A stretch of DNA of 64,000 nt from Pseudanabaena cinerea FACHB-1277 (lineage in GTDB: Bacteria > Cyanobacteriota > Cyanobacteriia > Pseudanabaenales > Pseudanabaenaceae): contig NZ_JACJPY010000009.1 of assembly GCF_014696345.1 (NCBI RefSeq), positions 1 through 64,000 on the forward strand. The letters are read 5' to 3'. This document shows positions 1,423 through 25,347 of the stretch, one piece after another (within the stretch, counting starts at the first letter, position 1; the number at the start of each line of letters is the position of its first letter). The notes beneath the pieces were generated by a model, which worked only from the letters and a program-made list of their open reading frames with translations, was not told the DNA's origin and ran no database searches. A program made the position numbers and the translations under genes.

Positions 1423-3945
1423 TTATCTCCTTAAAGTGTTTTCAAATTCTTGTTTTTTGCTAGAGATTAGAGAGCGTAAGCGATCGCCTTCTTCCTGCTG
1501 TTTCCTCTCCTCAAGTTCTAACCGATTTTCACATTCAGAAATAACTTGCTTGATCAAAGCATCAACTGATTGAATACGGTTATCGAATAAAGTATCAATG
1601 AACTCACCAATTTTTTCTTTGATACTGTTCTCTGATTTTTCAAACTCTTTAAACCCAGAATCACAGACTTGTTTACCAATTTGATAGTAAGCATCTGACA
1701 TTGAAGCAAATAAACCACCTCCTCCCAATAGAGCTGCCGCCGCAATACCTATGATAATCGCAGGACCTAATGCTAAAGCTGGAATCATGAAAAAAGCTGC
1801 TGCCGCGCCAGCACCGCCACCAACTACTCCGCCAGCAGTCCATGCTGCTACATAACTCGCATCAAAATTATTAAGAGCTAGGCTAAAATTATCGTCAAAG
1901 TTTGTGCCAATTTTTTTGTCAAGACCAGAAAAACTAGAATTAAGCGCTGTCAACTCTTCTTTTATTCCCCTGTCTAGCAGATTGAGTTTAGGGTCGATAA
2001 TCTCATTGTTTAAGTGTAGCAATACCCATAGATTAATTTGGGCTTGTAAGTCCTTCCCAAATTGATCTATATAATCTTGTATAAGCTGATCTCTGCTAAA
2101 TAGAGGGTTATGATCAGTTTTCCATAACTTGCTTCCTTGCATAATTGCGTCTTTAAATTCAGCGCTATACTTGATCCAAGATTCCAGAGCCATTTGCATA
2201 GTCTGTTTTCTCAGATAATCAACCATTTTACGGATAGTTACAAATCTTCCGCTTGCTTCACCAATACGTTCTAAGATTTCTTCTTTATAGGAAGCTTCCA
2301 AGTTTGTGTCAAGGCTCTCAGTTGCATTATTTAAATCGTTGACGCAATTTTGGGTAAGCTCATTCAGCTTTTGCGTAGTGGATTGCAAAATTACAGATCC
2401 GCGTTCATCAGTGAGAAAAGCTTCTAAAGTACGAGTAAAATTTTGAAAACTGACTAGATACTCATTCGATATATTGCTAAGAGTAGCTTTTAAAGCAGAC
2501 TTAGCAGAAATAAAATGGATTCTATCTTTGCCAGTGATAGAGCCATCCTTAATAATGCTATTAGCAGCAATCTGAACATCTTCGCGATCTTCATCACTAT
2601 CCAAATTGTCCATAAAATTGACAACTAGAAATAGATTTTCTAAGGGGCGATCACCTTCACGTTCCTTGATTTTGGTGATAATATCTCTTTCACCCTGAGT
2701 TAACAACTTATTCGCATTAGTCATAAATAGAATTGCATCAGTCTCTTTCAGCAACTCCTCCGTAACTCTAGTACGATCTGGATGCTCATTTAGCCCAGGG
2801 GAATCCACAATTTCTACACCATTACGGCATAGCAATAGATTGGGATGCTCAAAAACAATTTCGGCAATATTGGATTTAAACAATTCTTCACTACGGTTGT
2901 TTAGAGCCGCTTCCTTAGAAATAGCCGCTTTTTTCTGATAATCTTCAACTGCAATTTCTTGTTCATTGCCATCCCGATAACGACAAACTACCCGCTTGCG
3001 ATCGCCATATTTCAAAACCGACAAAGTACCACTACAAGGAATCGCCCTCACAGGTTGAATCTCTTCACCTAGCAAAGCATTGAGCAAAGTCGATTTACCC
3101 TGACTAAAATCACCAATCACCGCCACCCGAAAACGTTGTGATTCCAATTTGTCTTTAATAGATTGAACCTCATCTCGAAAAGTGACAGGTAAAAGGCTCT
3201 CATTAATACCATCATCAATCAGTTGAGATAAATGATTAATCCGTTTAAGCAAAGACTGTTTCTGTAGTTGAAAACCTTGTAGCTTTTGATATTCGCCACT
3301 TACTGAATCTGTCGAACTGGTTACATTTTGAGGTTCTTTAATCTCAATTTTAACAAGCTGATTTAAAGCAGCCAATAAATCATCTGCTGCATTCACAAAC
3401 ACAGTCCCCAAATCATGAAAACGCGCAGGATCTACTAGATCGCATACCTCTTGAAAATCTTGATTGTTGTATGGCTTGCCAGCAAAACTAGACTCTAAAA
3501 CATCAAGGTAACGCGATTCTATTTCTAAACGTTTGCCTAAATCCCGTAAATACTTACTCTCACTTGCATCTAGGCTAGAGTCCGCCATTGCCATTCTGTA
3601 ACCCAAACCAAACAACAGCAATTTTTCAGATTCACTCAATGGCACTAGCAAAATCAAAAAATCATCTATTTCACTATGCAATTTATATTTCTGAACACCT
3701 GACAGCAAAAGCTTGGCAACTTCCACAGTTTGCTTACTGGTCAGCTTGAGCTTGGCAAGTGTCGCTTTAAACTGAGCAACCTCATCCTCACTAACTTTTG
3801 CATCGGCATAAATCACCCCTTTCAACAGCGCGATCAAGTCAGCCATAAACACCACTTGGGGCGTAATGTCATGTACCGTCAAATCTTGACCAGTCAACTT
3901 TGATAAGAGTTTGACCGCTTGGCTACCGATAAGTTGAGTCTTCAT
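1423..3945 (-). CDS. bacterial dynamin-like GTPase with N-terminal TerB-like domain
   Basis: The 840-aa protein has three parts. Residues ~30-150 look like a TerB-type helical domain, with paired acidic loops YADAKVSEDE and ADSSLDASES. Residues ~270-520 are a dynamin-superfamily GTPase: P-loop GDFSQGKST at 278-286, the G2 threonine in PCSGT near 307, G3 DSPGL at 381-385, and a G4-like NFMD near 443-446 in place of the usual TKxD. The C-terminal half is helical, with a glycine/alanine-rich hydrophobic paddle near 690-740 that could enter membrane, then a charged coiled tail. The family bends or fuses membranes on GTP hydrolysis. It is divergent from a coiled-coil gene across a 130-bp gap. A membrane-repair or anti-phage role is inference. 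Confidence 0.85.
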   Translation of the reverse strand: MKTQLIGSQAVKLLSKLTGQDLTVHDITPQVVFMADLIALLKGVIYADAKVSEDEVAQFKATLAKLKLTSKQTVEVAKLLLSGVQKYKLHSEIDDFLILLVPLSESEKLLLFGLGYRMAMADSSLDASESKYLRDLGKRLEIESRYLDVLESSFAGKPYNNQDFQEVCDLVDPARFHDLGTVFVNAADDLLAALNQLVKIEIKEPQNVTSSTDSVSGEYQKLQGFQLQKQSLLKRINHLSQLIDDGINESLLPVTFRDEVQSIKDKLESQRFRVAVIGDFSQGKSTLLNALLGEEIQPVRAIPCSGTLSVLKYGDRKRVVCRYRDGNEQEIAVEDYQKKAAISKEAALNNRSEELFKSNIAEIVFEHPNLLLCRNGVEIVDSPGLNEHPDRTRVTEELLKETDAILFMTNANKLLTQGERDIITKIKEREGDRPLENLFLVVNFMDNLDSDEDREDVQIAANSIIKDGSITGKDRIHFISAKSALKATLSNISNEYLVSFQNFTRTLEAFLTDERGSVILQSTTQKLNELTQNCVNDLNNATESLDTNLEASYKEEILERIGEASGRFVTIRKMVDYLRKQTMQMALESWIKYSAEFKDAIMQGSKLWKTDHNPLFSRDQLIQDYIDQFGKDLQAQINLWVLLHLNNEIIDPKLNLLDRGIKEELTALNSSFSGLDKKIGTNFDDNFSLALNNFDASYVAAWTAGGVVGGGAGAAAAFFMIPALALGPAIIIGIAAAALLGGGGLFASMSDAYYQIGKQVCDSGFKEFEKSENSIKEKIGEFIDTLFDNRIQSVDALIKQVISECENRLELEERKQQEEGDRLRSLISSKKQEFENTLRR

Positions 3946-13479: not shown

Positions 13480-13743
13480 TTGAAAATAGGCGCAAAAAAG
13501 TTCGAGAAAGTACTAAATGAGAAAGAGAAAGCGCTTAAAAGCTTAATGGATAAAAGCTTTGCCTGTGAAGCTGAGAGACTGTATCGCCAAAAAGGGAGTC
13601 ATGCTATTTACAAAAATATTCAGGGAAAAAGAGTTGTTGTTCCAATTGATTCTGGAAAAGATATCAAACAGGGTACTTTGATGGGAATGATTCAAGATAT
13701 TGATGTTGACAAGGAGACTTTTTTCAAATTACTACAAGAATAA
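13480..13743 (+). CDS. HicA-like mRNA interferase fold protein without a visible HicB
   Basis: The last ~50 residues match the HicA double-stranded-RNA-binding-like toxin core: RQKGSHAIYKN with the catalytic-type His after GS, then RVVVPIDSGKDIKQGTL. The first ~35 residues (EKVLNEKEKALKSLMDKSF) are charged and unlike the usual short HicA N-terminus. The start is uncertain: TTG at 13480 has a weak upstream purine stretch, and ATG at 13546 would leave a 65-aa protein. No HicB-type partner is adjacent on either strand, so it may be an orphan or a decayed toxin. Confidence 0.5.
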   Translation: MKIGAKKFEKVLNEKEKALKSLMDKSFACEAERLYRQKGSHAIYKNIQGKRVVVPIDSGKDIKQGTLMGMIQDIDVDKETFFKLLQE

Positions 13744-13880
13744 AGCGATCGCCCAATCATCGCCCACAAACCTGATCGCCTTTTTCTCCATCAATCAGCG
13801 ATCGCCCCTCACCACCAAAACCTGATCGCCTATCCCCTCAAATCAAACAGCGATCTCTTCCCAAAAAACATAAAACTGGA
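13744..13880 (+). repeat. HIP1-bearing repeat array 1 (about two degenerate units)
   Basis: Two to three degenerate units alternate AGCGATCGCCC and CCTGATCGCC cores, with CTCACCACC and CCCTCAAATCAAAC linkers. It is the same unit as at 15933 and 16733. The last unit is damaged (GCGATCTC, GGATCGC). The following ~145 bp up to the next gene is AT-rich, with nothing else I recognise. Confidence 0.8.
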
Positions 13881-14025
13881 TCGCTAATTATCAATGCTAA
13901 AAATCAATGGAGATCTGGAGATCATTATTTATTATCTGGTTCACAAAATACTTTTTACTCTAGAGTGGATTCAATATTCACCTTTAAATTAGGCTAAGAA
14001 TTTCACTAACATAACCCTAATTTTA

Positions 14026-15066
14026 TTATTTTCGCAAATCACTAATAGCAAGAATAATTGATTTTTCGTGATCATAAATCTTTTTATTCATCTGAACAAC
14101 CTGCGGAATAGTATTTTCGTGAAGCCACTTAATTGAGGAAAAGTCTCCTGTCTCTAAGAGAGATTTTGCATCTTGCTTTGTAATTTCTTGAAATAGTGAT
14201 TTTCTCTCATTATCAGGTAAATCTAAGTTTAAGATGCACTCATATTCTGGTGTTTTCGAGTAACCAGGAAATAATAACGTCTTAGCCACAGCGAAATTAC
14301 CTTCAAAAGCTAAAGGGCAATACCCAACTCGAAAATAAGGACTACCTTTTCCTAAAATTAGATTTTTCTTGCCAAAGACCTTATCAACATATTGGTAGTG
14401 CCAGAAACCCTTACCTCCACATTGATCATAAAAAGTTATAGCAGGACTGCCATCTCGCAGTTTACAGAATTCAAAGTATAGATTCTCTTCTAAATATGCG
14501 TAAACATCACCAAGTGCCGAATGAGTTTTCCAATTAGGGTGGATACGATCACAAATTCGTTCAATAGAATGTCTAGTAAATGTGACCACATATTTAACGC
14601 CATCTCGGTCAATAGTTGGTTCTTGAGTAGAATAATAGCAAGTCCCTTTACTACTACGAAATCTTTTTGCAGAACGACATTGCACAATAATCTCTCTATC
14701 TAGGGGTAAAAGTCGAAAATCATTAAAGGGGAAATATCTATTGAATTTATCTTTCGGAAATTTGCTGAAAACTAATTCACTAAGAAAATCAATTACTAAA
14801 TAAGATCCCATATCTTCGCCAAATTTAAAGTTCTTTTTTACTGGTTCAATTGCTTTCCAATACCCAAGTTCTTTGATGTTTTTACAAATAGGTTTTAATT
14901 CATCGGGGATATCATTAAAATCGAATTTTTGAATTATCTCCTTGATTATTTGAGAGAAGTCTGGATCAGATCCTTCATTCTTAAAAATAAATTTAGGATA
15001 TTTATTCCGTTCTTCTCTTTTTTCTTTAGATTGCCAGTAGGGATTAAATCCTCGATGTTTTTTCAT
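14026..15066 (-). CDS. hypothetical protein, unrecognised, AT-rich
   Basis: I do not recognise a domain in this 346-aa protein. It is soluble, rich in Lys, Phe and aromatic residues. A central stretch has a possible metal- or nucleotide-handling look (RHSIERICDRIHPNW; TFYDQCGGKGFWHYQY), but no complete motif. Codon use is much more AT-rich than argH or chlH, and HIP1 sites are absent from the gene, which points to recent acquisition. It stands alone on the minus strand between repeat array 1 and the retropepsin module. Confidence 0.65.
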   Translation of the reverse strand: MKKHRGFNPYWQSKEKREERNKYPKFIFKNEGSDPDFSQIIKEIIQKFDFNDIPDELKPICKNIKELGYWKAIEPVKKNFKFGEDMGSYLVIDFLSELVFSKFPKDKFNRYFPFNDFRLLPLDREIIVQCRSAKRFRSSKGTCYYSTQEPTIDRDGVKYVVTFTRHSIERICDRIHPNWKTHSALGDVYAYLEENLYFEFCKLRDGSPAITFYDQCGGKGFWHYQYVDKVFGKKNLILGKGSPYFRVGYCPLAFEGNFAVAKTLLFPGYSKTPEYECILNLDLPDNERKSLFQEITKQDAKSLLETGDFSSIKWLHENTIPQVVQMNKKIYDHEKSIILAISDLRK

Positions 15067-15129
15067 GATTCAATTTTGTATCGATATAGTTTTAAAAATT
15101 TTTATCTCAGCACTCTATAGTTTCAATCA

Positions 15130-15561
15130 CTAACTACCTAGTGATTTCAATCTTGGGCAAACCTCAAAAGCTAACTCATGGCGATAGAAACAAACATTGA
15201 ACTCATTAAAGAAGTTCATATGTCCAAGGATTACAGGTGAATCATTTGATTTAGTCCAAGCAAAAGCAAATAAAGTGCTTGAGAAAGATCCAACAGTGCC
15301 ATCCAAAACTAGACCTTTGGCTTCACTCCGAGAAAGATTGCCACTTAACGGAATTATTACTGTCTGTTCTTCCCAAACTGCTCCTAGATGTAAGCCCATA
15401 TCATAAGGTAATACGTTTACACTTGCCCCTGTATCCAATAAAGCCATAACCTCTATAGATTTACTGCCATTAGTAAGCCGCAAAGGTAAATAGGGCATAA
15501 TGACTGATCGCCCAGAGCTATCAATTTTCTCGATAAAATTAAAACGCTGTCCGTTAAGCAT
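15130..15561 (-). CDS. retropepsin-like aspartic protease domain protein
   Basis: The protein has the single aspartic-protease motif LLDTGASVNVLP, a hydrophobic flap-like region, and VILGHMNFFNEF where retropepsins carry the ILG strand. One D-T-G per chain means it must dimerise to be active. The chosen ATG at 15561 overlaps the stop of the upstream 85-aa gene by 8 bp; an alternative ATG at 15579 adds six residues. This two-gene module (small helical protein plus retropepsin) recurs in cyanobacteria, as I recall. The substrate is unknown. Confidence 0.75.
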   Translation of the reverse strand: MLNGQRFNFIEKIDSSGRSVIMPYLPLRLTNGSKSIEVMALLDTGASVNVLPYDMGLHLGAVWEEQTVIIPLSGNLSRSEAKGLVLDGTVGSFSSTLFAFAWTKSNDSPVILGHMNFFNEFNVCFYRHELAFEVCPRLKSLGS

Positions 15562-15811
15562 TTGCTTTTTCCTTTGCATCCCTCAAAAGATTTGACAATG
15601 CTGTGACCGCTTGAGTGTCTGCTTGAGGCGACCACACGACTGCATCAGTTGAGGCTAATTGATTGAGTAGATTTTGTTCTGGATTAACATTTGCTGTTTC
15701 CAAATTACAACCTTCTTCTTTCGCCACAGCAAGCAATAGAAAATGGATTAACCGTAGTTTATCCTCATGGGTTAATTGACTAACAGTTGATAAAAGCTCC
15801 GTGAGAGGCAT
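15554..15811 (-). CDS. small helical protein coupled to the retropepsin gene
   Basis: The 85-aa soluble protein begins MPLTELLSTVSQLTHEDKLRL, a helix pair seen in short cyanobacterial proteins that precede retropepsin or toxin-like genes. Its 3' end overlaps the retropepsin start, so the two are co-translated. It could be an inhibitor, a substrate or an antitoxin-like partner; sequence alone does not decide. Confidence 0.6.
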   Translation of the reverse strand: MPLTELLSTVSQLTHEDKLRLIHFLLLAVAKEEGCNLETANVNPEQNLLNQLASTDAVVWSPQADTQAVTALSNLLRDAKEKANA

Positions 15812-15932
15812 AATTGCGATTAGGTTGGGTTGGTCTTAGATAATGCTGGTAATTGTTCCTGTGCTTCAGCGATCGCCGAATAATTAAGCATAGTGTTTTA
15901 CCTAAGTTATTAAGATTATACGATATCCAGCC

Positions 15933-16079
15933 CAGCGATCGCCTATTTCCCAAACCAAACAGCGATCGCCCCTCACCCCCCACAAAACCCGATCGCCTAT
16001 TTCCCAAACCAAACAGCGATCACCTCTCACCACCCACAAAACCCGATCGCCTATTTCCCAAACCAAATAGCGATCGCTT
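15933..16079 (+). repeat. HIP1-bearing repeat array 2 (54-bp units)
   Basis: Two nearly identical 54-bp units and two partial ones are present. Each has AAACAGCGATCGCC, a CTCACCACCCACAAAA linker, CCCGATCGCC and TATTTCCCAAACC. Because 54 is divisible by three, the array is open in several frames and makes spurious repetitive peptides on both strands. It lies just upstream of the DUF6883 gene. Confidence 0.9.
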
Positions 16080-16122
16080 GAGATTAGATATACTAAAATC
16101 AATTTACTATTTATTCCTGCCT

Positions 16123-16461
16123 ATGAAATTACCAAATGGCGATTGCCCAGAAATTTCTATGCAAAAGATTTTAGGGTATTGCTTAAACTTCAACCATGAT
16201 AAGGGTAAAGATAAGGCGAGAGTCTTTCAATCTAGGCTCGGTATTACAGTGAAAAATGCTGATCGCTTGGTTGAGTTAATTCAAATTGCAGCAGTTGAAG
16301 GTAAAGTTGTACAAGAGGGTAATACGAAATTTGGCAAAGAATATAAAGTGGATTGGGAAATCCCTAATACAGGAGGTGTTGAACTTCGGACTATTTGGGA
16401 AGTTAGTATAGAGTCTGGTAATCCACGTTTGATCAGTGCTTTTTTGAAGAGAGAGAAATAA
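16123..16461 (+). CDS. DUF6883 family protein
   Basis: The 112-aa protein starts MKLPNGDCPEISMQKILGYC and continues with a KGKDKARVFQSRLGIT motif and a C-terminal ELRTIWEVSIESGNPRLISA strand pair, matching DUF6883 as I know it. An in-frame upstream extension to 15853 exists only because it reads through repeat array 2, so the ATG at 16123 is preferred. Its TAA overlaps the ATG of the next gene (TAATG), indicating coupled translation with a DUF4926 protein. The pairing resembles a toxin-antitoxin or immunity module, but function is unknown. Confidence 0.8.
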   Translation: MKLPNGDCPEISMQKILGYCLNFNHDKGKDKARVFQSRLGITVKNADRLVELIQIAAVEGKVVQEGNTKFGKEYKVDWEIPNTGGVELRTIWEVSIESGNPRLISAFLKREK

Positions 16462-16721
16462 TGAAAATTCCACAGTTACTTGATACGATCGCTATCCTAA
16501 AGCCAATTTCCGTAGATAGGCTTTCGCTGATGGAAGCGGAATATGAATTTAATTCAGCTTTGCCAGTGGGTTTGGTAGGTACAATTGTAGATATTCATCA
16601 GGATAAACAAGGAGTTGACTATCTGGTTGAGTTTGCTGATTCTGATGGGTGTGAGTTTGCGATCGCCTATTTAAAATCTAATGAATTTCTTACTTTGCAA
16701 TACGAGCTTGTCGCGGCTTAA
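16461..16721 (+). CDS. DUF4926 domain protein
   Basis: The 86-aa protein has the DUF4926 pattern LLDTIAILKPI, VGLVGTIVDIH, YLVEFADSDG and IAYLKSNEF, a small SH3-like beta barrel. It is translated from an ATG that overlaps the DUF6883 stop. DUF4926 proteins often sit beside small genes of unknown role in cyanobacteria. A binding partner role for DUF6883 is inference from the overlap. Confidence 0.8.
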   Translation: MKIPQLLDTIAILKPISVDRLSLMEAEYEFNSALPVGLVGTIVDIHQDKQGVDYLVEFADSDGCEFAIAYLKSNEFLTLQYELVAA

Positions 16722-16732
16722 AGTTTTTACTT

Positions 16733-17216
16733 GATCGCCTCTCACCACCCCAAAACCCGATCGCCTAAATCCCAAAATCAAACAGCGATCGCCCCTCACC
16801 ACCAAAAACCGATCGCCTAAATCTCAACATTAAACAGCGATCGCCTCACCACCCACAAGACCCGATCGCCTAATCTCTCACATCAAACAGCGATCGCCCC
16901 TCAACACCTAAAACCCGATCGCCCAAATCTCAACATCAAACAGCGATCGCCCCACCACCCAAAAACCCGATCGCCTATTTCCCACCACCAAACAGCTATC
17001 GCCCCTCATCACCCATAACCCCGATCGCCTATTCCCAAAATCAAACAGCGATCGCCTCTCATCACCCACAAAACCCGATCGCCTTCTCCCAATCAAACAG
17101 CGATCGCACCCTCACCACCCACAAAACCCGATCGCCTATTCCCTCAAATCAAACAGCGATCGCCCCACATCATCCACAAAACCCGATCACCTATTCCCTA
17201 GCATCAATCAGCGATC
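16733..17216 (+). repeat. HIP1-bearing repeat array 3 (about nine units of ~52 bp)
   Basis: About nine tandem units, each of 51-56 bp, follow the pattern AAACAGCGATCGCC, CTCACCACCCACAAAA, CCCGATCGCC, TATTCCCAAAATC. Each unit therefore holds two GATCGCC cores about half a unit apart. Linkers vary by substitutions and 1-3-bp indels, while the two cores are well kept; one core is GCTATCGC and one GATCACC. This accounts for nearly all of the gap between 16722 and 17283. The remainder (17217-17283) is the AT-rich promoter region of the next gene. Confidence 0.92.
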
Positions 17217-17283
17217 TGTAATTGGTTGAATTAGTGTAAATTAAAAAAAGTATATACTTGATAGTTCATTTCTTCTTAAAATC

Positions 17284-19519: not shown

Positions 19520-20089
19520 ATGACTGAAACAAAGAATATTTCTGAACTTACACCTAAATCATTGGAAGTTACTTTTGAGCAATTATGCTCTATAGTTCAT
19601 CATGCACAACCATCTAGACTAAAAAAGTTACAACCTTGGTTAAATCAGGCAATGTCAAGATATGAGATTAATACTCGCTTACGACAAGCCCACTTTATTG
19701 CTCAAGTTGCATATGAATCAGGTGATTTCAACTATTTAGAAGAACTTGAAGATGGCGCTGACTATGAAGGGAGAGACGACCTTGGGAATACCACTGCTGG
19801 TGATGGTGCTAAATTTAAAGGTAGAGGCCTATTTCAAATTACTGGAAGATATAACTATACGCAAGTTGGCAATGCGTTGGGCGTAGATTTAATTTCTAAT
19901 CCTGAACGCTTAGCTGACCATGATTTAGCCTGTCTAAGCGCAGCATGGTTGTGGAGTGCAAATCAACTCAATGAATTTGCGGATAAAGATGATATTCAAC
20001 TTATATCAAGCCGAGCTAATAGTGGTTTTAATGGTCTTGATGCTAGAATAAGTTATCTTAATAGAGCCAAGCAAGTATTTGGGATTTAA
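19520..20089 (+). CDS. GH19-family chitinase/lysozyme-like glycoside hydrolase
   Basis: The ~189-aa protein matches the compact, phage-endolysin type of GH19. It has AHFIAQVAYESGDF with the catalytic Glu, then YEGRDDLGNT, a GDGAKFKGRGLFQITGR loop with NYT, and a C-terminal AWLWSANQLN.FAD helix. These enzymes cleave beta-1,4 bonds in chitin or peptidoglycan. There is no signal peptide, so delivery to the wall would need lysis, a holin or a secretion device. The ATG at 19520 is preferred to a TTG nine bases upstream. The stop overlaps the convergent gene at 20086 by 4 bp. Confidence 0.85.
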   Translation: MTETKNISELTPKSLEVTFEQLCSIVHHAQPSRLKKLQPWLNQAMSRYEINTRLRQAHFIAQVAYESGDFNYLEELEDGADYEGRDDLGNTTAGDGAKFKGRGLFQITGRYNYTQVGNALGVDLISNPERLADHDLACLSAAWLWSANQLNEFADKDDIQLISSRANSGFNGLDARISYLNRAKQVFGI

Positions 20090-20385: not shown

Positions 20386-20682
20386 CTACGATTTTACAGT
20401 GACATAGTGATTATCTGACCTAATATTTTCACCATGTTCAAGACTAACTCCATTTTTCCAGAGTTCGTACTCGCTGATATCAATATCCTCATTCCACACT
20501 AACCCATAGCCACCAGCCTCAATCCTAAAACTCTTAAAAAAGCTAGGATTTTTCAACGGTGCAAACATTGGTTTATTTAGCAAATTAGAGATATTGTATT
20601 GCTTGAACTCACGATCGCTAAACTCAATTAATAAAGTGCGATCGCCTATAACTTTAGCAGAAATAATTTTAGGCAACATCAC
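20386..20682 (-). CDS. DUF2442 domain protein
   Basis: The 98-aa protein fits DUF2442: an N-terminal beta region (KIISAKVIGDRTLLIEFSD), the FAPLKNPSFFKSFRIEAGGYGLVWNED centre, and DISEYELWKNG. DUF2442 proteins are common next to toxin-antitoxin genes and have been proposed to be antitoxin-like or DNA-binding. The start overlaps the BrnA gene end by 14 bp, placing it third in the BrnT-BrnA transcript. Confidence 0.8.
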   Translation of the reverse strand: MMLPKIISAKVIGDRTLLIEFSDREFKQYNISNLLNKPMFAPLKNPSFFKSFRIEAGGYGLVWNEDIDISEYELWKNGVSLEHGENIRSDNHYVTVKS

Positions 20683-20956
20683 TCAAAGCCTCACGAATCA
20701 CATCCTCACTCACACCATGACGTTTCAAACTCTCAATAAACATAGACACAGTATCTCCATCTAACCTCTCAAGATCTGCACGAAGTCCTTGACCAATATA
20801 AGCACGCACCAAAGGCTGATATCCTGAAAACCCTAACAGTGGTGCAACTTTTTTCAAATCTTCAATCACATCTTCAGGAATGCGGATAGTCACCGTTGTC
20901 ATCGGACGATTTTTATCCAATCTTTGTTTTAAAGTCTCAAGCTTCATAATATTCAC
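20669..20956 (-). CDS. brnA: BrnA-like ribbon-helix-helix antitoxin
   Basis: The protein (95 aa, or 92 from the inner ATG at 20947) contains TTVTIRIPEDVIEDLKKVA, a ribbon-helix-helix strand and helix, then LGFSGYQPLVRAYIGQGL. It overlaps the toxin gene upstream by 20 bp and DUF2442 downstream by 14 bp. BrnA dimers bind BrnT and repress the operon. The toxin-first order is the usual one for BrnTA. Confidence 0.8.
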   Translation of the reverse strand: MNIMKLETLKQRLDKNRPMTTVTIRIPEDVIEDLKKVAPLLGFSGYQPLVRAYIGQGLRADLERLDGDTVSMFIESLKRHGVSEDVIREALSDVA

Positions 20957-21233
20957 GCTCCTTACGAGTTGCTTTCCTTGCTGAAATAATCCTAACTAAA
21001 TCATTCTCACGTTCAACATAAACAACATATAGAAGATTCCATCGCTTATCTAAACCAATGACAGCAGCTCTTTCCTCATCATTACGGCTTGCATCAACTA
21101 CTACTAAAAATGGGTCAAAAAAGGCTTCAGTAGCTTGCGGAAATGTCACACCATCATGATTAATAGGATTAATCCGAGCCTTCTCTTCATTCCAAATAAA
21201 GTTAATGCCATTTAATCGAAAAAATACGTCCAT
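20937..21233 (-). CDS. brnT: BrnT-family ribonuclease toxin
   Basis: The 98-aa protein matches BrnT: FIWNEEKARINPINHDGVTFPQATEAFFDP, with the family's KHGVSFEEA region here reading NHDGVTFPQA (one residue longer). A central beta strand YVVYVERENDLVRIISARKAT ends in the conserved RxISARxA(T) motif. BrnT is a RelE-like RNase that halts translation. It is first in the brnT-brnA-DUF2442 unit. The promoter must lie in 21234-21308, which is AT-rich. Confidence 0.85.
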   Translation of the reverse strand: MDVFFRLNGINFIWNEEKARINPINHDGVTFPQATEAFFDPFLVVVDASRNDEERAAVIGLDKRWNLLYVVYVERENDLVRIISARKATRKEREYYEA

Positions 21234-21342: not shown

Positions 21343-24300
21343 TTACTCGACACCTTCAATGCGGTCTTCGAGTTCTTGATATAGCTCACGCAATCTATCC
21401 AGATTTTCTTCACTGGTTTCCCAATAGCCTCGACCATTGACTTCCAAGAGAGTACCAACAATCTTACGGAACGAGTTGGGGTTGAGATTTTTGAGCCGAT
21501 CGCACATCTCTTTATCGTTCACATAGACATCATTGACATCCTCGTAAACCCAGTTATCCACTGCTCCAGCCGTTGCTGACCAGCCCATCGTGTTGACAAG
21601 GCGCTTGGAGATTTCGCGCACACCTTCGTAACCACTCTTGAGCATTCCCTCATACCATTTGGGATTGAGAATCTTGGTGCGGGTATCGAGGCGGACTGTC
21701 TCAGTCAGGGTGCGGACTTGAGCATTGGCGGTGGTGGTGTCGGCGACAAAAGAGGCGGGCTTTTTGCCATCTTTACGGAGACTGCCAACGAGCTTAGTGG
21801 GGTCAGAGTCGAAGTAATGGGAGACATCGGTGAGACTGATTTCTGAGGAATCCAAGTTTTGGAAGGTCATGTCAACGGTCTTCAGTGAGGCTTCGTAAAG
21901 CTGACGCTGTTGGGTGTTGCTGACATTGCCACCAAAGGCGAAGGACTTACGCGATAGATACATCTGTTGCAATTCTTCTTCGTTTTCCCATGTACTGTTT
22001 TCCACAGCAAGGTTAACGTTAGAAGAATAGGAACCCGATGAGTTACTGAATACGCGAGTTGCCGCTTGGCTGATGGTTAAGCCAAACTCTTCCGCTTGGG
22101 CGATCGCGTGTTTGCGGACAAAGTTCATTTCCAAAGGCTCATCGGCTTCGGCTGCCATTCTTACGGCGCGATCGATCAAGTCCATTTGATTCACGAATAA
22201 ATCGCGGAATACACCTGAGCAGTTAACCACCACATCCACGCGAGGACGACCCAACTCCTCAAGGGGAATCAACTCCAAACGGTTGATGCGACCAAGGGCA
22301 TCGGGCATGGGCTTCACGCCAATCATGCAAAGGACTTGGGCGAGGGATTCGCCGTAAGTTTTGATATTGTCGGTTCCCCACAGAACAACCGCGATCGTTT
22401 CGGGATAGACTCCATTGTTGTCTTGACGTTGACGCTCTAACAGGCGATCAACTACGGTTTTGGCTGCTTGGACTGCCGCACTTGTAGGAATCGAGTTGGG
22501 GTCGAGGGCGTGCATATTCTTGCCAGTAGGCAGCACAAGGGGATTGCGAATTGGATCGCCACCAGGACTAGGCAGAATGTAATCGCCTTCAAGGGCTTTA
22601 ATCAATCCGCCCAGTTCATTATCAGCAACAATTTGCTTGAGACAAAACTCTAGGAATTCAAAGAGAGGCTTGATGTCGTCCTTATTGACATTGGCATAGC
22701 CAGCTTCTTGAAGAACTTCGATCCAAGGTTCCGTTTTACCCATTCTAAAGAAGTTGAGAACGGAGAGCTTAGAAACTCTGCCATCATCGTCGGCTTTTGC
22801 CTTGACCAATGCACCCACTGCTTGATTAGCGGCTTTGCGGATATTTGCTAAGAGTTCCACATCGGCGTAAATGCCCTTGTCGCTGGACTTGTAAAGCTGC
22901 TCAATATCACGCCCGATCGCATCACACATGATCCGCAATAGAGACTTCATATTGTCTTCGGGGCGATCAAAGCTGGCGATACTGGTCAAGACATCGGTGA
23001 CATCTTCCACTTTCGGAGGTTCACCCACAACGTGTAGACCACAAGGGAGAACACGGGATTCGATTTCCATCAGCTTGTTATAGACCTGACCGATCACGTT
23101 ATCGCGTTCCTCAAGGGACATATCCTTAGCATCTTGTTCAGGAAGTTCCACATCCTTATCCAGATTGACTAGGCGCACTTTGTCCATAATGGTATTGGTG
23201 ATCTGCACACCACGACCACCGAGACGCAAATCCTTGTAAGAAGCAATCAATTCGCTCAGTTCTTGCAAATTGCGGCTCAAGCCTGCATTTTCAGGCGCAG
23301 GGGTAATGTAGCTGATGATGGTGGCGTAGCCGCGACGCTTAGCGATCGTGCCTTCCGATGGATTGTTGACAGCGTAGTAATAGATGTTGGGCAATGCGCC
23401 AATCAAGCTATCTGGGTAACAGTCGCCCGACATACCCACTTGCTTCCCTGGCATGAATTCCATTGAGCCATGAGTGCCAAAGTGAAGAACAGCATCGGCT
23501 CCCCAGATGTGATTGAGGTAAGTGTAGTAAGCAACGAAGCCGTGATGGGGCGATGCGGACTTGCTGAAGAGCAAGCGCATGGGATCGCCTTCATAACCGA
23601 AGGTGGGCTGTACACCTACAAATAGATTGCCGTACTGCTTGCCGTAAATCAGCAAGTTCTGTCCATCGGAGTTGAGATGTCCAGGGGCGGCTCCCCATTG
23701 CTCAGTAATGGCATCAACGTAGGGCGTATGTGCCTCATATTCGTTGACGGACATTTTGTAAGCGATATTCAGTTCAGGACTGCCCACCATTGCTTCGGGA
23801 TCATGCAGGATTTCCGTCATCATGTCATGGGAAGTCTTCGGCAGATCGGTAATGTCATAACCGTTGTCACGCAGGGCTTCAGCAACTTTGTGAATGGAGG
23901 AGAATACATCTAAGTAGGCAGCCGTACCAATGTTGCCCTTGTCGGGAGGGAAACTGAAGATGGTGATTGCCAATTTCTTCTCATGGCGAGGCTTGCGGCG
24001 CAAGTTTGCCCATTTGATGGCACGGTTAGCAATGGTTTCAACGCGATCGCCTAATGCGTGAGATCTGCCTGTCATACTATCGCGACCCGACAGCACGATG
24101 GGATCGAGTCCGCCGTCAAGTTCGGGCAAGGCAACCTGAAGGGCAACTTGCACAGGGTGCAAACCAAGATCACTGTCCTGCCATTCTTCGGTGGTTTGGA
24201 AAACTAGGGGCAGCGCCACCATATAGGGACGGTTGAGCTTAGCAAGGGCTTCGATCGCCTTGGGATGATCCTGCTTAGCAGGACCGCCAACGAGGGCAAA

Positions 24301-25347
24301 GCCTGTGAGAGAAACCACGCTATCCACGATCGCCCGATCCTTCTGTCTAGGATCGTAGAAATATTCTTCAACGGCTTTGGAGAAGTCTAAACCGCCATTG
24401 AATACGGAAATCACCCTTGCGCCGAGGGACTCTAATTCCTGCACCATCGATACATAGTGCGCGTCATCCCCTGTGACCAAGTGCGTTCTTGCCATTAGCA
24501 ATCCCACGCAAGGCGCAAGAGGATCTTTCATATCATCAGAAATATCGGTGCGACTGTTAAACCATGCCAAATATTCGGCAGTGGATTCAAACATTTTCGG
24601 TGCGAGAGGATGCCATAGCCCCATATCCAAATAGGTGACAGGATCTTTGATTTGCAAAGGTGCTGAGCCGTTTTCCTTTGCTTTTGCCTTGACCTCTGGC
24701 AAATAATTTTGGGCAAGCATCAATAGGAAGTTTTCAATATTTTCCGTTGATCCCCCTAGCCAATATTGAAAGCTCAACATGAAGTTACGCGCATCCTGCG
24801 CCTTGTCCATGGGCATATATTTGAGAATCTTGGGTAGGGTCTGTACGACCTTGAGCATACTGTCTTGAAAAGAACTGCCTGACTTCTCTTTGCGCTTTCG
24901 CATAAACTGGGCGATCGCACTCTTGGACTGCCCTAAATTCTCCATATTGAAACTGCCCATCTTGTTGAGGCGCATCACCTCTGGCATCGATGGGAAAACC
25001 ACGCAAGCGGCTAGTCGATCTCGATGGGGTTGCACTGCTTGGGCGATCTTGGTCGCCATATCGTCAATAAAGATTAGTGAAGCAATGAATATATCGGCAT
25101 CGGCAATATCATCCTTAAATGCTTCGTAATTTTCAGGGCTACGCAACTCCTCGATCAGATAGCCACTTACCTCGATCGCTAGGTTAGAGTTATTTTTATT
25201 AATAGACTTGACCGCCGCCGACATCGCGCTTTGGTACTGAGGCTCAAGTACCACATACACCAATTTCATTAAAACCCGCCCCTTTAAATCGTCGGGAGCA
25301 ATACGTCTGTTAGATAATGCGGCGATCGGTGGCACAGAAGTGAACAT
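21343..25347 (-). CDS. chlH: magnesium chelatase subunit H
   Basis: The 1334-aa protein is the large porphyrin-binding subunit of Mg-chelatase. It works with ChlD and ChlI to insert Mg into protoporphyrin IX, the first committed step of chlorophyll synthesis. The N-terminus ([21 protein letters not shown]) and the CobN/BchH core motifs [22 protein letters not shown] and [24 protein letters not shown]-type segment are intact. Length is normal for cyanobacterial ChlH, and the C-terminus [22 protein letters not shown] is present. It is monocistronic here, with its own terminator and a long upstream region with possible RpaB control. Confidence 0.97.

Follow-up and report, generated by a model that had tools for sequence, protein, structure and literature searches.

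Three arrays and the genes around them

Within the window, by which we mean the whole 64,000-nucleotide stretch of Pseudanabaena cinerea FACHB-1277 DNA analysed here, three arrays of short tandem repeats were found at 13744-17217, in agreement with the initial annotation, which had placed three at 13744-17216 and had described them as sharing one orientation. All of their cores run on one strand. Array 1 (13744..13883, + strand) consists of seven degenerate half-units with HIP1-type cores (cores at 13747-13879), array 2 (15934..16077, + strand) has six cores at a spacing of exactly 27 nt (cores at 15937-16072), and array 3 (16733..17217, + strand) has 18 GATC cores and one mutated core (cores at 16733-17213), with half-units of two kinds, A and B, in alternation. 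TRF scored array 3 at 515-562 and array 2 at 256. The proposed unit of ~52-54 bp is indeed present (52-54 bp), but the underlying period is a ~27-nt half-unit of the two alternating kinds, A being GATCGCC-CCTCACCACCCACAAAACCC and B being GATCGCC-TATTCCCAAAATCAAACAGC in the window arrays.

The linkers of the window arrays contain almost no G on the + strand, and in every array dialect that we saw, one strand of the linkers is nearly G-free. The GC that follows GATC is conserved in 83-100% of the half-units in the window and in 93-99% across the genus, and the linker columns are conserved at ~40-97%. The earlier statement that the cores are kept while the linkers drift therefore holds only in part: the cores surpass most linker columns, yet conservation is also good in the A linker itself, and the G/C asymmetry of the linkers is maintained. 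HIP1, GCGATCGC, is strongly over-represented, the window having 123 sites where 0.73 would be expected; because it is common throughout the genome, its abundance by itself says little about the arrays. What is unusual about them is the regular spacing, the A/B alternation and the strand asymmetry, not the HIP1 frequency.

A CRISPR array was rejected because the linkers are related to each other and of two alternating kinds, rather than unrelated spacers between identical repeats. A structured RNA was rejected as well, the Rfam covariance-model search having returned nothing above threshold and one sub-threshold match. Folded as single-stranded DNA, the array forms hairpins in a regular row (z -8.5), which carries no evidential weight since it is expected from any tandem array of palindromes.

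An ORF for a HicA-type toxin (13480..13743, + strand; Pfam PF07927) lies upstream, its stop codon marking the start of array 1, and no HicB adjoins it. A HicA-like sequence also occurs in the cassette series of a second genome, G012 (locus L156), and given this similar HicA, the copy in the window could be a truncated or rearranged one. Between arrays 1 and 2 lie an ORF with no assigned function (14026..15066, - strand), a weakly aspartyl-protease-like ORF (15130..15579, - strand; PF13650, E 2e-4, below the cut-off) and a small ORF (15554..15811, - strand), the G012 homologue of which provides the second flank of the array-2 junction. Pfam matches identify the cassette bounded by arrays 2 and 3 as a DUF6883 gene (16123..16461, + strand) paired with a DUF4926 gene (16461..16721, + strand). 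Farther along, a BrnT toxin gene and its partner (20669..21233, - strand; Pfam) adjoin chlH (21343..25347, - strand), and homologues of this pair form an array-bounded cassette in other genomes. The island also holds a Chitinase class I (GH19) gene at 19520-20089, which is possibly phage-derived.

Across the genus, the region 3' of chlH is a hot spot for islands, with chlH as the conserved anchor of this conserved site: small toxin-antitoxin-like genes and, in most genomes, arrays are found there, and the contents vary by genome. The argH side was rejected as a conserved anchor, because in none of 14 genus mates was another window gene found within ~15 kb of argH.

Array orientation and distribution

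For the genus, we collected 56 loci, picked by array patterns or by their position 3' of chlH, which contain 147 arrays of at least three cores. All of the adjacent pairs within a locus (96/96) are co-oriented, a count slightly biased toward agreement since neighbouring runs were joined only within one orientation, and no island is mixed. Along complete chromosomes the orientation switches between islands, once within 62 kb. These switches are more numerous than two replichores allow, so array orientation does not track replication direction, and the replication strand was rejected as what sets it. Array orientation is a property of each island.

Arrays of this kind are present at more than a dozen places in the window genome (4.77 Mb, 179 contigs), according to a genome-wide picture built from pattern searches and fetched stretches; the pattern of core pairs with G-free linkers matched 99 times and the reversed pattern 0 times. 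Several of its contigs C69, C52, C70, C120, C1, C13, C160 and C144 are short or end near array islands, as if the assembly broke at these islands. A two-core pattern was found in all 26 of the 26 Pseudanabaena genomes, and its reversed control matched zero times; the two-core matches include some chance HIP1 pairs, and the dialect itself is visible in most of the genomes listed. In a public collection, the named matches to the dialect are all from Pseudanabaena, apart from one cyanobacterial MAG.

A looser three-core pattern matched 32 of 292 cyanobacterial genomes, a figure that includes chance matches and coding repeats, and several other cyanobacterial families carry their own dialects of the same array plan. 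In three genomes of such families (G220, G179 and G066; loci L212-L220), polarised HIP1 arrays of their own dialects lie by small gene pairs, and those of G066 and G220, as read from the sequences rather than from profile matches, appear to resemble VapBC or XisHI. In G091, from another cyanobacterial family, a YoeB-antitoxin cassette between arrays (L224:4850-5800) is ~90% identical over ~500 bp to the Pseudanabaena copies, and the arrays around it are of a dialect different from that of Pseudanabaena. On the plasmid ABRG53f of Pseudanabaena ABRG5-3 (L204), a HIP1-cored array adjoins PemK/MazF, and a HigA/RelE pair is located a few kb off.

Cassettes between the arrays

The arrays are the boundaries of cassettes. 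The 106 array-bounded cassettes have a median length of 623 bp and ~two ORFs, and are 85% coding. They are largely toxin-antitoxin operons, with Pfam families that include ParE, BrnT, DUF433, DUF5615, PemK, PIN, DUF6883, DUF4926, Phd/YefM and YoeB, among others; none of these was among the 25 commonest of the 151 families in 84 control genes. The cassettes fall into 51 families, 24 of which are multi-copy. They recur across islands and strains with a fixed orientation, the orientation relative to array polarity being the same in 112/112 homologous pairs across islands and genomes. Between cassette families, genes face either way relative to the array in a ratio of about 50:50. A Rho-type (C-rich, G-poor) terminator was set aside as a role of the arrays on the ground of this lack of strand bias, and also because Rho is not known from cyanobacteria.

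With the arrays masked, homology between non-orthologous islands stops, in both loci, no farther than 80 bp from an array at 39% of the ends (43% when dereplicated to 76 segments), compared with 2.0% for random placement. Because the gaps between operons inside the islands are mostly arrays, and because the homology pairs are non-independent, with the near-identical strains G317 and G318 supplying many of them, the 39% shows that borders coincide and not by itself that the arrays cause the exchange; part of the boundary signal could be explained by arrays merely filling the gaps between operons. The noncoding flank from the array edge to the outermost ORF has a median of 30-35 bp, and in the pairs other than G317-G318 the alignments stop short of the array edge by no more than 25 bp at 52% of left and 75% of right ends. 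The similarity of array units beside homologous cassettes is 0.69-0.73, compared with a background of 0.64-0.67. These units are thus hardly above background, implying either that the arrays turn over fast or that they do not travel intact with the cassettes, and the idea that arrays are carried along intact is unsupported. Islands grouped by array dialect showed no separation at the thresholds used, and this grouping says little about whether exchange stays within a dialect.

Array-cassette-array arrangements alternate with single arrays. Among loci at least 88% identical, this alternation was seen in 18 comparisons, several of them redundant. Array 2 of the window is a single-array allele, and G012 has the allele with array, cassette(s) and array; the extra stretch at this junction contains more arrays and predicted PemK/MazE- and HicAB-like genes. 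In a wider count of 46 presence/absence junctions, the short allele has an array in only 16, which speaks against recombination through the arrays; as a baseline, 5% of the DNA and 13% of the island spans are taken up by arrays when 20-bp margins are included. Several of the array-free junctions come from paralogues matching a single 8-12 kb stretch, or involve a 2.66-kb insert with short overlaps. L165 (G001 C1:2215000-2233000) has an insertion-sequence-like 2.66-kb segment that several related loci lack, and the junction shows an 8-bp overlap.

The clearest view of a junction comes from G318, in which a 2.05-kb cassette lies between two arrays; it is missing in G317, the flanks being 98-99.5% identical. 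The single array of G317 (3191-3526) has units of the left G318 array at its start and of the right one at its end, and is visibly fused from both. Its middle units have no exact match in either G318 array, which calls for array turnover or a third partner. G317 is apparently a metagenome assembly, so that an assembly effect may, though improbably, lie behind this array. Over the eight scorable comparisons, the outer units match the corresponding outer units at 0.83, against 0.72 in the cross comparison, a modest signal.

How cassettes may be exchanged

We consider it probable, at roughly two chances in three, that recombination through the direct-repeat arrays inserts, deletes and swaps the cassettes of the islands. 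An island would be a row of small cassettes, mostly toxin-antitoxin operons, parted by one-way HIP1-cored direct-repeat arrays. Recombination between two arrays would remove the cassette lying between them, and an array-bearing cassette originating in a different island, on a plasmid or in imported DNA could be inserted or swapped in with its orientation unchanged. Because the junctions share one co-oriented repeat family, array recombination can delete, insert or swap cassettes in this way, and the co-oriented direct repeats, the kept cassette orientation and the fused array are what such recombination predicts. We infer that RecA-type homologous recombination is the agent of the exchange, that cassettes arrive by way of plasmids or natural transformation, and that the arrays are retained because they help the exchange. 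A dependence on strict homology would not predict the G091 cassette among arrays of another dialect. The earlier interpretation is only partly supported as a whole; its proposal that the arrays separate accessory genes and perhaps drive recombination or gene capture is the part that fares well, being borne out by the cross-genome cassettes, their boundaries and the presence/absence comparisons.

The quick turnover of the array units would also fit neutral minisatellites that expand in the gaps of toxin-antitoxin islands and merely mark these gaps, the cassettes moving by other means. HIP1 is abundant everywhere, and toxin-antitoxin genes are mobile in cyanobacteria anyway (PMC4963859). Neutral expansion is nevertheless rather unlikely, given that the arrays are strictly co-oriented and follow neither replication direction nor gene strand, that the cassette-to-array orientation is fixed, that a fused array was found, and that noncoding flanks of ~30-35 bp are often preserved up to the array edge. 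The YoeB cassette crossed families despite the differing array dialects, which speaks for a site-specific recombinase working on the HIP1 cores, with the arrays as multiplied targets, as was proposed for GGCGATCGCC in plasmids of Synechococcus PCC 7002. A 2015 review relates that HIP1-type sites have been tied to site-specific plasmid recombination in that strain and that SDR5 inserts precisely within HIP1, and it sees no evidence that ties HIP1 to homologous recombination (PMC4390886). However, a palindromic core alone could not impose the strict orientation that we observed (96/96 and 112/112), making a recombinase that acts solely on the cores less likely, and none of the common families of cassette genes is a recombinase; we regard this alternative as unlikely.

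The islands resemble the cassettes of chromosomal integrons in that the cassettes are small and often of toxin-antitoxin type, have co-oriented sites between them and differ in content from strain to strain. In 12 of 25 Pseudanabaena genomes an integron integrase scores above the curated cut-off, and toxin-antitoxin-like genes lie near some intI loci, as would be expected if the islands were integron cassette arrays or relics shuffled by the IntI of some Pseudanabaena. Yet the arrays occur in 26/26 genomes and 13/25 have no IntI above the cut-off; the integrase loci include C1:4478372 and C1:3533942 in G318 and C1:4696011 in G001, and that of the window genome (C114:93946-94306) is a broken remnant. 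No arrays were found in the ~19 kb fetched around five intI loci, and in the complete genome G001 the array islands are scattered on the chromosome, away from intI. An integron also has single attC sites, whereas the borders here are, by sequence, tandem HIP1-cored arrays with no integrase adjacent and with a gene strand unbiased to the site. As far as tested, the array islands are not integron cassette arrays, and shuffling by IntI is highly improbable. Recombination through the arrays themselves remains our preferred reading, and in Pseudanabaena and some other cyanobacteria these repeats resemble the junctions of a cassette system that is integron-like but operates with no integron.

The arrays have likenesses to other systems as well. 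Cyanobacterial STRR and LTRR are short tandem intergenic repeats too; STRR are heptamers and LTRR have 37-bp units, and neither is known to have been described as HIP1-cored or as a cassette border. HIP1, described in 1995, is not known to have an agreed function so far. Each core of the array units is HIP1 or a near variant, but HIP1 as described is dispersed at about 1 per kb, in contrast to the tandem, strand-polarised occurrence at cassette borders seen here (PMC4390886). The pdif (dif) modules of Acinetobacter plasmids are likewise bounded by short repeats and occur in various contexts, one of the modules being a toxin-antitoxin pair, but they are bordered by inverted XerC/XerD-type sites, unlike the direct, co-oriented, HIP1-cored and mainly chromosomal repeats of other sequence described here (PMC6449649). 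We found no earlier account of HIP1-cored arrays as cassette borders in the open-access literature searched, and the annotation's remark that no element of this form had been described is consistent with that literature.

More broadly, the strand-polarised HIP1-cored arrays might serve cyanobacteria throughout the phylum as a dedicated system for exchanging cassettes, equivalent to an integron but with no integrase. Such a system would spread cassettes of toxin-antitoxin and related types both within a species and from one species to another, and would assign HIP1 a concrete role in recombination; we put this proposal forward tentatively, as somewhat short of an even chance. With HIP1-cored arrays as borders of mobile cassettes, a recombination role of HIP1 becomes directly testable, array-bounded exchange would help explain the large toxin-antitoxin stock of cyanobacteria, and the arrays offer a means of reading cassette history between strains.

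Two minor observations concern the arrays. Those of G091 have a short repeat, GCGATAGCGAAGCGCTCCGTAGGAATC, embedded in them. Viral carriage was set aside, the sole match to the three-core G-free pattern among viral contigs being the short IMG/VR contig IMGVR_UViG_3300032032_000788 (L203).
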